Assembly (NCBI RefSeq): GCF_024343775.1
Contig: NZ_RJUF01000012.1
Location: forward strand, 1 to 64,000
DNA from: Lacihabitans soyangensis
Lineage (GTDB): Bacteria > Bacteroidota > Bacteroidia > Cytophagales > Spirosomataceae
DNA length: 64,000 nt
Direction: 5' to 3'
The position numbers and the translations under genes were made by a program. The notes beneath the pieces were generated by a model. It worked only from the letters and a program-made list of their open reading frames with translations, searched no databases and was not told where the DNA came from. Below, one piece after another: positions 1,980 to 32,196 of this stretch; within the stretch, counting starts at the first letter, position 1; the number at the start of each line of letters is the position of its first letter.

Positions 1980-2687
1980 CTAAAGGATTTTATCTGGGTT
2001 AGTCAAAGATAAAAAATTATAAGAACTGGTGTCTTTGTATTTTTCTTTATTTAAAGTAAAATAGAAGGCACCTTTCTTTGAAAAACCCTTTTGTTTTTCA
2101 TCTGTTTTGGTCAGAATGTTTGTGCTGAGCAATTTTCTGGTAAAATTCCTTTTATCAAACTTAGTATCGAATATAGCTTCGTATAAGTTTTGTAGTTGAG
2201 GTAAGGTGAATTTTTCAGGAAGTAATTCAAACCCAATTGGATATAAAGACGCATTGGCTCTCAGACGCTCAACAGCCAAGGCGACCATTTCCGAGTGGTC
2301 AAAAAGTAATTCGGGTAATTTTTTTAAAGAAAACCATTTGGCACTGATTTTATTCGTCAGTTTGTGGTCATAGTCTGCTATATTAAGTAAAGCCTTGTAA
2401 GTAACTGATACTGTTCGCATTACAGGGTCGCGTCGAGGGTTTCCGAAAGCGGCAAGTTGTTCAAGATAGACGTCTTTTAAACCCGTGTGTTCGAAAAGAA
2501 TCCTATCGGCGGCCTCATTTAAGCCTTCATTTTCTTGCAACCAACCACCCATTAGAGACCATGTCTCTTTATTTTCCTCAAGTCCTCTTTTTACAAGTAA
2601 TATTTTTAATTCTTCTCCGTCAAATCCAAAAATTATAGAGTCAAGTGCTACCAAACACTTGGATTGTTTATTATAAAGGTCTAGCAT
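1980..2687 (-). CDS. Nudix-fold transcriptional regulator, NrtR-like
   Basis: 235 residues: an N-terminal Nudix fold (about 8-135) followed by a winged-helix region (about 150-225), the architecture of the NrtR family of Nudix-derived regulators. The Nudix box at about 47-70 is degenerate: the usual REUxEE core reads RILFEH, so hydrolase activity is unlikely and a ligand-sensing role is favoured. NrtR-like proteins in Bacteroidota control sugar or NAD metabolism; the ligand here is unknown. It is divergent from the ABC ATPase gene. The 62-bp gap holds CAAATT-N9-AATTTG (2703-2723), which could be an operator (inference). Its stop lies 4 bp from the stop of the surface protein. Confidence 0.72.
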   Translation of the reverse strand: MLDLYNKQSKCLVALDSIIFGFDGEELKILLVKRGLEENKETWSLMGGWLQENEGLNEAADRILFEHTGLKDVYLEQLAAFGNPRRDPVMRTVSVTYKALLNIADYDHKLTNKISAKWFSLKKLPELLFDHSEMVALAVERLRANASLYPIGFELLPEKFTLPQLQNLYEAIFDTKFDKRNFTRKLLSTNILTKTDEKQKGFSKKGAFYFTLNKEKYKDTSSYNFLSLTNPDKIL

Positions 2688-20878: not shown

Positions 20879-20978
20879 AAAAAATAAAAGCATAAATAAG
20901 AAAAGAATAGTTTTTTGCAAAAAGGTTAAGGTAAATATAAATAAATCAAGAAAATATATCACCGTGCACAAATGAAAA

Positions 20979-20994
20979 TGTATCCGTTTAATAA
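20979..20994. repeat. Direct repeat copy 1 (TGTATCCGTTTAATAA)
   Basis: 15 of 16 bases match 21797-21812 (TGTATCCGCTTAATAA), about 820 bp away. The two copies bracket the small transcription unit at 21.1-21.7 kb. The second copy forms part of the ridA terminator stem. It may be chance or a duplication remnant. Confidence 0.35.
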
Positions 20995-21080
20995 GAAAAT
21001 GGGGTAATTCTAAATACTTATCCAGCGGTACTAATTATAATGTAATTTATTTATTTTTAATAGTTTATGTGAAATTTATA

Positions 21081-21110
21081 GAATTGATTTATGTCAATTC
21101 TGTGAATTGA
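21081..21110. promoter_or_regulatory. FNR/CRP-like operator 1, with overlapping palindromes
   Basis: GAATTGA-TTTATG-TCAATTC (21081-21100) is a perfect 7-bp inverted repeat. Its core TTGATTTATGTCAA (21084-21097) differs by one base from the FNR consensus TTGAT-N4-ATCAA. It overlaps a second inverted repeat, TCAATTC-TGT-GAATTGA (21094-21110). The centre lies about 62 bp upstream of the predicted transcription start, a classical activator position for the CRP/FNR family. Confidence 0.55.
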
Positions 21111-21139
21111 CTTAGTAACTATTACTGAAATGATAGTCT

Positions 21140-21147
21140 TAACTTTG
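21140..21147 (+). promoter_or_regulatory. TAnnTTTG promoter box of the small transcription unit
   Basis: TAACTTTG matches the TAnnTTTG -7 element exactly; transcription is expected to start near 21153. No clear -33 TTG at the normal spacing is seen, which would suit an activator-dependent promoter. Confidence 0.5.
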
Positions 21148-21148
21148 C

Positions 21149-21166
21149 AATTGATTTAAATCAATT
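21149..21166. promoter_or_regulatory. FNR-type operator 2
   Basis: AATTGATTTAAATCAATT is an 18-bp perfect palindrome that contains TTGATTTAAATCAA (21151-21164), an exact match to the E. coli FNR consensus TTGAT-N4-ATCAA. It overlaps the predicted transcription start, a position expected to repress. Confidence 0.6.
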
Positions 21167-21206
21167 ACAGAATTTCCTAATCGAATCAAAATAAAAAAAA
21201 CACAAA

Positions 21207-21374
21207 ATGCAAGTTACCATCTCAGAAAGACCAACAGAAGTTAAAGGATTAAAATATACCACACCGAAACCGCAGAACTCTGCTATTTCGACTACCTTTT
21301 CGGGATGCTATACCATGGAAAAAATCGGAGGGAAACAATTTTGCTTCGTATTCGATAGAGGAATTGAGTTTTAA
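21207..21374 (+). CDS. Small protein of 55 residues, unknown
   Basis: ATG 21207 to TAA 21372-21374. The protein begins MQVTISERPTEVKGLKYTTP and ends GGKQFCFVFDRGIEF, with two Cys (34 and 46). No signal peptide or membrane segment is visible. It lies about 54 nt after the predicted start of a promoter flanked by two FNR-like palindromes. I do not recognise the family. The mixed, non-repetitive composition and the dedicated promoter argue for a real gene; conservation would decide. Confidence 0.55.
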   Translation: MQVTISERPTEVKGLKYTTPKPQNSAISTTFSGCYTMEKIGGKQFCFVFDRGIEF

Positions 21375-21390
21375 TATAAATAAGAAAGAA

Positions 21391-21408
21391 GGGTGAAAAA
21401 TTTCACCC
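21391..21408 (+). other. Stem-loop just after the small ORF
   Basis: GGGTGAA (21391-21397) pairs with TTCACCC (21402-21408). It lies 17 nt after the stop of the 55-codon ORF and has no T-run, so it is more likely an mRNA-stability or processing element than a terminator. Confidence 0.5.
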
Positions 21409-21423
21409 CCCTTTACCCGTCCT

Positions 21424-21574
21424 ATTGAGTGAAAACTTTACTAAAATCTTAATTGAGTGAATCGAATTGAGTGAAAATTAACGGAACATAATTGAGTGAA
21501 CAATTAAAACCATTAAGCTAAAAATTAATCGCTCCGCACACTTCTTATAAATTATCTATATCGCTTTGAGTGAA
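21424..21574 (+). repeat. Five irregularly spaced ATTGAGTGAA repeats
   Basis: ATTGAGTGAA occurs exactly at 21424-21433, 21452-21461, 21466-21475 and 21491-21500, and as TTTGAGTGAA at 21565-21574. All are in the same orientation in the 3' part of the small transcription unit. The spacing is irregular (start-to-start 28, 14, 25, 74), so this is neither CRISPR nor a simple tandem repeat. It could be a multi-site binding element for an RNA- or DNA-binding protein (inference). Confidence 0.7.
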
Positions 21575-21589
21575 ACATTTTACTGAAAT

Positions 21590-21667
21590 CACTTTCGAAC
21601 TTTCCCCTTAAGAAAATGTATATTTTATTAGGAAAGCACTTCGTCAGGTTAGGGGAAAGTCGAAGTG
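21590..21667 (+). ncRNA. Structured RNA segment with alternative hairpins
   Basis: Arm A (21590-21607, CACTTTCGAACTTTCCCC) pairs with arm C (21652-21667, GGGGAAAGTCGAAGTG) through 16 pairs and two single-base bulges. Arm B (21637-21643, CACTTCG) can instead pair with the same end of arm C (CGAAGTG, 21661-21667). A-C and B-C are mutually exclusive. This lies just upstream of the terminator at 21703-21733. Confidence 0.45.
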
Positions 21668-21702
21668 AATATTATGATGTCCCATATAAATAATGGAGAA
21701 TT

Positions 21703-21733
21703 TCATGCCAAGTGTAAGCATGATTTTTTTTTT
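21703..21733 (+). terminator. Intrinsic terminator of the small transcription unit
   Basis: TCATGC (21703-21708) pairs with GCATGA (21718-21723), followed at once by ten T (21724-21733). Confidence 0.7.
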
Positions 21734-21779
21734 GACTTTTTTTTCAGATTTTTTCTCTAAATTATTCTTGTTATAGTAC

Positions 21780-21807
21780 AAAAAGCGGACACATTATGTA
21801 TCCGCTT
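21780..21807 (-). terminator. Intrinsic terminator of gntP-ridA
   Basis: On the minus strand AAGCGGA (21807-21801) pairs with TCCGCTT (21789-21783), then TTT continues the T-run to 21780. The loop also contains CATAATG. It lies about 115 bp after the ridA stop. Confidence 0.6.
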
Positions 21808-21923
21808 AATAATTATGATGCCTTTCAATAATTTTTCTTACTTTTTTAGTTGCCCTAATTTGGTGTCGCCATTAGATAACTTTTTATAAATTATCTTATT
21901 TAGTGGTATGTTTTTTGACAACA

Positions 21924-31938: not shown

Positions 31939-32073
31939 AAAAAATTAGCAAGAGAATTGAATGTCAGGTGCTTTGCCGAAACTTTATTTGGTCGGGCGAC
32001 CCACATCTTTTTTACCACCGCGGTGTTTCTAAGTACTCGGTTGGTTTCCTAACGAATCAGGAACTCTTGATGT
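31939..32073 (-). ncRNA. Candidate SAM-responsive (S-box-like) riboswitch leader of metK
   Basis: On the minus strand, P1 is ACATC (32073-32069) with GATGT (32007-32003). Inside it are: the S-box-like CAAGAG (32069-32064); P2 TTCCT/AGGAA (32063-32059 with 32050-32046); and P3 CCaACC (32044-32039) with GGTGG (32019-32015) followed by TAA. The latter equals the S-box GCaACC/GGTGCTAA pairing with a covarying pair. Downstream, ACCTGACAT (31969-31961) can pair with the P1 3' strand (anti-P1). GCAAAG (31976-31971) with CTCTTGC (31955-31949) then T6 (31944-31939) resembles a terminator. P2 is much shorter than in the classical S-box. A TAnnTTTG-like box (GAATTTTG, 32085-32078) would start the RNA at P1. 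Confidence 0.55.
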
Positions 32074-32196
32074 ACTGCAAAATTCAGGATTTTTGGTGAA
32101 ACTAAAAAATGTTAGTGAAAAAATCTAATCAATGTCTTTATTGTAGAAAATTTAACTATTTCGAGGTGCTTTTTGCTTTTTGAAAAATAAAAATTT

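Follow-up and report, generated by a model that had tools for sequence, protein, structure and literature searches.

A putative dual-function RNA with a CRP/FNR-type promoter beside nadE in Lacihabitans soyangensis

The region between positions 21,081 and 21,733 of a 64,000-nucleotide stretch of the Lacihabitans soyangensis genome (contig NZ_RJUF01000012.1; the whole stretch is hereafter the window) is best read as the gene of a dual-function RNA, activated by a protein of the CRP/FNR family from a class I promoter, a reading that we draw from sequence comparison and to which we give a probability of about 0.6. The unit is flanked by the divergent NAD synthase gene nadE and by a convergent gene of the YjgF/RidA type, beyond which lie genes for a GntP permease and a LysM transglycosylase (Pfam assignments). 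The two palindromes, the TAnnTTTG box, the open reading frame (ORF), the hairpin, the five repeats and the T10 tract of the original prediction are all read directly in the DNA where it had placed them, and the features of the region are the following:

20979-20995, plus strand: A-motif TGTATCCGTTTAATAAG, upstream, first of an inverted pair (matrix scans)
21017-21033, minus strand: A-motif, inverted partner 38 bp on (matrix scan)
21084-21097, no strand: palindrome 1, CRP/FNR-type, TTGATTTATGTCAA, centred at -61.5, kept in 9/9 nadE-side units
21140-21147, plus strand: -7 box TAACTTTG (TAnnTTTG), predicted start at 21152
21151-21164, no strand: palindrome 2, CRP/FNR-type, TTGATTTAAATCAA, overlapping the predicted start, intact in 6/9
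21207-21374, plus strand: 55-codon ORF with the motif STTFxGCY..KI..KQ.CFVFDRG (dN/dS)
21385-21414, plus strand: hairpin H1 (covariation)
21424-21574, plus strand: five ATTGAGTGAA-type repeats, starting at 21424, 21452, 21466, 21491 and 21565
21589-21668, plus strand: bulged long hairpin H2 with the conserved loop TATTAGGAAAGCA (covariation)
21671-21685, plus strand: conserved block ATTATGATGTCCCAT, unpaired; most relatives from other genera have CATTACGATGTCCCAY
21704-21710, plus strand: conserved CATGCCA, lying here in the terminator's 5' arm
21703-21733, plus strand: terminator-like stem TCATGC/GCATGA followed by T10 at 21724-21733 (by eye)
21797-21832, plus strand: two tandem A-motifs, 19 bp apart, past the terminator (matrix scan)

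According to the mechanism that we propose, the region would be transcribed as a single unit of about 580 nt. Bound at -61.5, a protein of the CRP/FNR family would recruit RNA polymerase to a promoter with a -7 box and no visible -33 box, and when this protein is abundant the second site, on the start, would curb the output. The 5' part of the transcript would be translated into the conserved 55-residue protein, and the 3' part of the same molecule would be a structured regulatory RNA composed of H1, the sense ATTGAGTGAA motifs, H2, the unpaired blocks and the terminator. This 3' RNA would act in trans, most likely through its repeated unpaired motif and its conserved blocks, to which an RNA-binding protein or target mRNAs would bind.

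The comparison relies on 19 loci, namely that of the window (genome G000) and 18 others picked for a match to the ORF or to one of two covariance models, R1 (H1 plus the first ATTGAGTGAA) and R2 (H2 plus the block that follows it). The original prediction had made its case dependent on conservation of the ORF and the palindromes in relatives; both recur there, as do the box, the hairpins and the repeat, and the unit therefore stands above chance. Nine units from three genera lie beside nadE (G000, G001, G003, G004, G005, G006, G008, G023 and G042). Within -1000 to +700 of H2 the palindrome TTGAY-N4-RTCAA occurs 18 times, and the remainder of the 19 loci has no copy; all 18 occurrences fall in the nine nadE-side loci.

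Sites centred near -61.5 characterize the class I geometry of CRP/FNR-family promoters. The centre of palindrome 1 lies at -61.5 in the window and at -59.5 to -61.5 in the other nadE-side genomes, and the distance from the start of the TTGAT-N4-ATCAA-type palindrome to the TAnnTTTG box is 54-56 bp in all nine, which places such a site near -61.5 in each of them (the scan showed one extra box each in G001 and G003). No -33 TTG could be aligned by eye across these genomes. The kept spacing and the lack of an aligned -33 TTG support the idea of a self-contained unit with a CRP/FNR-type promoter. Palindrome 2 is intact in six of the nine genomes, degenerate in G008 (TTGATGTAAATGAA) and absent from G023 and G042, which have additional palindromes elsewhere near the unit. 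The combined design first put forward, activation from upstream together with repression at the start, thus fares unevenly: activation from about -61.5 is strongly suggested by the geometry, and repression via palindrome 2 is the weaker case. The sequence TTGATNNNNRTCAA is found at only two places in the window (three matches when both strands are counted, 0.79 expected), a count within the range of chance, as at least three were reached in 9 of 100 shuffles of the window. The predicted start at 21152 follows from the position of the TAnnTTTG box at -12 to -5 in Flavobacterium psychrophilum, as given in the accessible part of the source (PMC9723704).

A single-sequence search of 99 genomes found clear relatives of the ORF, at E 6.4e-7 or better, in seven besides that of the window (G001, G003, G004, G005, G006, G008 and G033); some match at E up to 1 was obtained in 36 of the 99, mostly by chance. 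With a profile built from eight ORF sequences, four of 222 genomes of the family gave additional weak matches, two of which (G023, G042) lie at the same nadE locus and carry a similar motif; the other two (G048, G196) fall inside very long ORFs and were taken as chance. For five genomes, dN/dS amounts to 0.07-0.18 in seven of the ten pairs, those with a finite dS, synonymous sites being saturated in the other three. By this measure the 55-codon ORF is under purifying selection, so that the putative RNA contains a conserved ORF, as a dual-function small RNA should, whose translation is predicted. Searches of Pfam and NCBIfam with four ORF relatives returned no meaningful match, which rules out a known protein family for these, and the predicted structure is unreliable (mean pLDDT of 48.9 for ten sequences).

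The region had initially been viewed as a small unit built around its ORF. The ORF unit stands, and the RNA had been underrated: H1, the repeats, H2 and the conserved blocks together appear to form a structured RNA family. R1 matched 19 of 222 genomes of the family (E up to 0.01) and R2 matched 17 (E up to 0.05), with one match each; the union amounts to 20 of 222, or possibly 19, G043 having an R1 match without R2 that may be a terminator look-alike. Among 390 genomes drawn from the order, R2 gave eight matches, all in three genera of Spirosomataceae. Of the 19 chosen loci, all have R1 and 17 have R2, with R1 preceding R2 on the same strand throughout; R1, R2 and the ORF profile match their own training sequences by construction.

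In the window both hairpins are unusually stable (z of -3.97 for H1 and -2.21 for H2); the whole 569-nt fold is not (z of -1.12, with 14 of 100 shuffles as good). The covariation score of H1 is 0.386 versus 0.102 for shuffled alignments, and that of H2 is 0.327 versus 0.168 for 17 sequences fitted to the model; no shuffle out of 500 reached either score. Such model-fitted alignments are biased, and a less biased count for H2, on a plain MAFFT alignment of 13 sequences, agrees with them (0.314 versus 0.190, 0 of 500). For both hairpins the share of paired cells and the covariation score lie above every one of the 500 shuffles and every slid control, and sliding the partners lowers every measure, with the caveat that related sequences can beat shuffles without any structure. 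Over the three alignments (H2 plain, H2 fitted and H1, in this order), pairs with double changes stay within the shuffled range (reached by 142, 118 and 254 of 500 shuffles), and so do further pair types (299, 374 and 50 of 500); the covariation signal thus comes from many cells at few pairs. On these scores, H1 and H2 covary between genera.

The repeats point in the same direction. The core TTGAGTGA occurs in the unit at 21425, 21453, 21467, 21492 and 21566, and eight times in the window as a whole versus 3.15 expected, a number that none of 100 shuffles reached. Within the units of the 19 loci we counted 43 sense copies and no antisense copy, a strand bias that one would expect of a signal in RNA. 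The copy joined to H1 is generally present, a long array only in some loci: G006 has six exact copies, the window five and G001 four, versus a single one in each of G003, G004, G005, G035, G056 and G191. By eye, G035 also shows about ten degenerate CAATTGCTATTGAGTG copies upstream of H1, at irregular spacing (L085, 1100-1560).

One could suppose that no RNA is made here and that a nucleoid or partition protein binds the palindromes and repeats as DNA, since A-motifs and palindromes do cluster around the unit. Yet such binding would explain neither the compensatory base changes in H1 and H2 nor the codon-level selection, nor a promoter box at fixed distance and a terminator, and we regard this explanation as very improbable. 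As to a described RNA family, Rfam release 15 searched at permissive thresholds with the region and the loci of eight relatives gave only sub-threshold matches to unrelated families, which rules one out for these sequences. At gathering score, the whole window yielded only a SAM-I/IV riboswitch located elsewhere (31974-32078, minus strand) and nothing over the unit.

The RNA might instead work solely in cis, as a 3' UTR: the region would then be the ordinary mRNA of a small protein, controlled by a CRP/FNR-family regulator, and its structured 3' part would merely stabilise or terminate the message. The strong purifying selection on the ORF fits this, as does the position of H1 within a few bases of the stop codon in the window and in G001, G003, G005, G006 and G008. 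G004 and G005, too, keep the promoter and the ORF, and H2 was not found there with R2, even with filters off. The reverse case is provided by genus g27 (nine genomes), where the RNA is present with R2 scores of up to 104.6 bits, away from nadE; in the four g27 genomes in which nadE could be located, that gene is at another place. There, no relative of the 55-residue protein was detected at E 0.01 and no palindromes occur in the RNA loci; an ORF of another kind, of 73 residues, is found downstream of the RNA in the g27 source locus and in 8/8 other g27 loci. This suggests that the RNA is the core of the system, and it seems able to stand alone. In addition, a 3' UTR needs neither conserved unpaired blocks nor a repeated sense motif, and we consider an exclusively cis-acting 3' region rather unlikely.

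Further variants concern the presence and number of units. In G007 and G009 the transglycosylase gene comes immediately after nadE, no unit lying between the two genes, and the ORF profile, R1 and R2 are all without a match in these genomes. Conversely, in G189, G190 and G195 we found a second, shortened copy after ybeY, with an H1-like hairpin, ATTGAGTGA and an A-motif (L084, L080 and L082, about 1500-1800); these copies have no R2 match, and CATGCCA is present in two of the three.

The A-motif, a 17-bp sequence (TGTAYCCGYTTRATAAK), lies within -1000 to +700 of H2 in 19/19 loci. It is present on both sides in 11 of them; the other eight have it only downstream. Upstream it typically forms an inverted pair 38 bp apart (window, G004, G005), downstream a tandem pair 19 bp apart (window and several others). 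A scan of the 19 loci gave 61 sites near the RNA and 10 elsewhere, with a matrix partly trained on the counted sites. As an independent test, a matrix from the genus Lacihabitans was applied to 12 loci of other genera: at threshold 13 it found 34 sites near the RNA (19.8 kb) versus two in the other 54.1 kb, all 12 loci being hit, and at threshold 11 it found 36 near and nine elsewhere, whereas resampling the near stretches 50 times gave a mean of 1.84 and a maximum of 4. The motif is not a dispersed genome repeat, as it occurs at 22 places with up to two mismatches versus 42 for a reversed control. Its exact form GTATCCGYTTAATAA occurs three times in the genome, twice at this unit. The third exact copy lies beside a palindrome on contig C181, where R1 and R2 match at chance level only, and this place was discarded as a second unit. 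Among ten relatives' loci for this site, the palindrome is kept in G001, G003 (at another distance), G005 and G008, none with an A-motif, and we take the C181 copy as coincidental or lineage-specific.

A separate observation on C181 is a second small-RNA-like gene opposite tRNA-Leu (by eye; L051, about 1850-2190, with L147 and L148). It has a promoter box TACTTTTG followed by a stretch with AAGATAAAAGTTGTGTGGATTTAGTAGCGGGAAAGG, and a hairpin with a T run in G005 as well as in the genome of the window. Nearby, G008 and G005 retain AATTGATATATATCAATT, and G001 has a similar site. The tRNA is the only Rfam match at this locus.

The A-motif is left unexplained by the dual-function RNA model; the obvious ideas are a looped operator or recombinase sites. 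If the latter, the unit might be a non-autonomous mobile or cassette-like element whose A-motifs are sites of a recombinase or transposase supplied elsewhere, with the RNA and the ORF as cargo or maintenance parts. The clustering of A-motifs around the RNA in the 12 loci of other genera would be natural in such an element, and so would the location of the g27 unit away from nadE, the empty nadE-transglycosylase junction of G007 and G009 and the shortened ybeY-side copies. It would be less easy to reconcile with the occurrence of R2 only once in each of 17 genomes, with the nadE position common to three genera, and with A-motifs that flank both sides in only 11/19 loci and not as simple inverted ends. 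Moreover, no transposase was noticed among the flanking genes, which are annotated in part, a search of viral contigs with the ORF profile gave no relative, and the DNA from 20950 to 21850 had no match in plasmids and phages. Overall we find this origin quite unlikely. A wider scheme can be sketched, which we put forward as doubtful and exploratory: a Spirosomataceae-specific RNA family accompanied by the 17-bp motif, existing in RNA-only forms and in forms that would have captured the ORF and a CRP/FNR switch, in which the repeated unpaired AUUGAGUGAA would titrate an RNA-binding protein in the manner of a Csr-like decoy acting on a different protein, all within a mobile or looped regulatory cassette.

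Returning to the dual-function RNA, the regulator itself was sought in the genome of the window, where 14 HTH_Crp_2 matches were found, four of them above the cut-off. The E..SR recognition helix and the four-cysteine motif of FNR served as yardsticks. Two of the four proteins carry the E..SR helix (L135 and L136, helix read by eye), further candidates exist, and an FNR-like N-terminal cysteine cluster was not seen by eye in either of the two. Proteins of the L135 type are found at 77-92% in G001, G003, G005, G006 and G008, distantly (about 40%) in G004 and G042, and, out of eight g27 genomes examined, at 58-66% in G056, G189, G191 and G192; no relative was found in G033, nor in G023 (E 1e-5), which nevertheless keeps the -61 site. 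Co-occurrence thus does not single out L135, present in g27 without RNA-side palindromes and missing from G023, and neither L135, L136 nor any of the further candidates could be tied to the palindrome site.

FNR-family control had been proposed together with sensing of oxygen, NO or redox state. The CRP/FNR-type promoter is retained from this proposal; the sensing is supported by no result, no FNR-like cysteine cluster being visible by eye in the E..SR proteins, and oxygen as the signal is a guess. The genome contains 27 exact palindrome sites. ORFs were listed in 20 regions, some of them selected for the A-motif, which covered 17 of the sites besides that of the window; nine of these 17 lie wholly within ORFs of at least 90 codons. 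Among the proteins tested downstream of palindromes are a Rep3 plasmid initiator and an aminotransferase; there was no hint of respiration among them, and an oxygen regulon was not established. An exact TTGATTTAAATCAA lies 46 bp upstream of a Rep3-type initiator gene on contig C186 (L056, 2072-2085), likely a plasmid replication gene. On contig C1, a small cysteine-rich peptide whose leader ends in GG (L052, about 2230-2510, minus strand; by eye) adjoins a cNMP-binding, CRP-like gene and a palindrome, and looks from its sequence like a natural-product precursor.

In the literature searched we found no published description of this RNA, nor of a dual-function regulatory RNA in this bacterial group; it would be one if it acts in trans. 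A selected small protein, an RNA supported by covariation and without an Rfam match, and a conserved activator geometry are brought together here at one locus, and all of these could be tested in Lacihabitans strains with reporters and RNA-seq. In related genera the two functions are naturally separated, since the RNA occurs there both alone and together with the ORF, and the A-motif offers a handle for finding a DNA-binding partner.

Several known RNAs resemble parts of this unit. Like Rfp18 of Flavobacterium psychrophilum (PMC9723704) and GibS of Bacteroides thetaiotaomicron (PMC7366714), it would be a conserved RNA of Bacteroidetes with its own transcription unit; the accessible parts of those descriptions, which set the two apart from our RNA, mention neither an ORF nor a CRP/FNR-type site. 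RsmY and RsmZ, as partially available in PMC8395346, likewise carry several copies of one short motif, which could titrate a binding protein, but their motif is GGA, whereas that of the Lacihabitans RNA is AUUGAGUGAA. GGA occurs 10 times in 21152-21733, six times within the ORF and never in the ATTGAGTGAA repeats. VcdRP of Vibrio cholerae, a dual-function RNA encoding a 29-residue protein and pairing via four cytosines (PMC8672173, accessible part), shares the small ORF and the CRP-family site in the promoter; vcdRP is repressed by CRP, however, whereas the position of the Lacihabitans site suggests activation. Closest in outline is PhrS of Pseudomonas aeruginosa, which according to the same portion of PMC8395346 is a small RNA that needs the CRP/FNR-family protein Anr, is induced at low oxygen and also encodes a conserved 37-residue peptide of unknown function. 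The Lacihabitans unit would likewise combine a CRP/FNR-family-dependent RNA with a conserved peptide. No relation by sequence was seen, in that Rfam gave no match at gathering score, the two not having been aligned directly, and the Lacihabitans RNA differs from PhrS in its length of about 580 nt, its repeat array, its covarying hairpins H1 and H2 and the A-motifs nearby.
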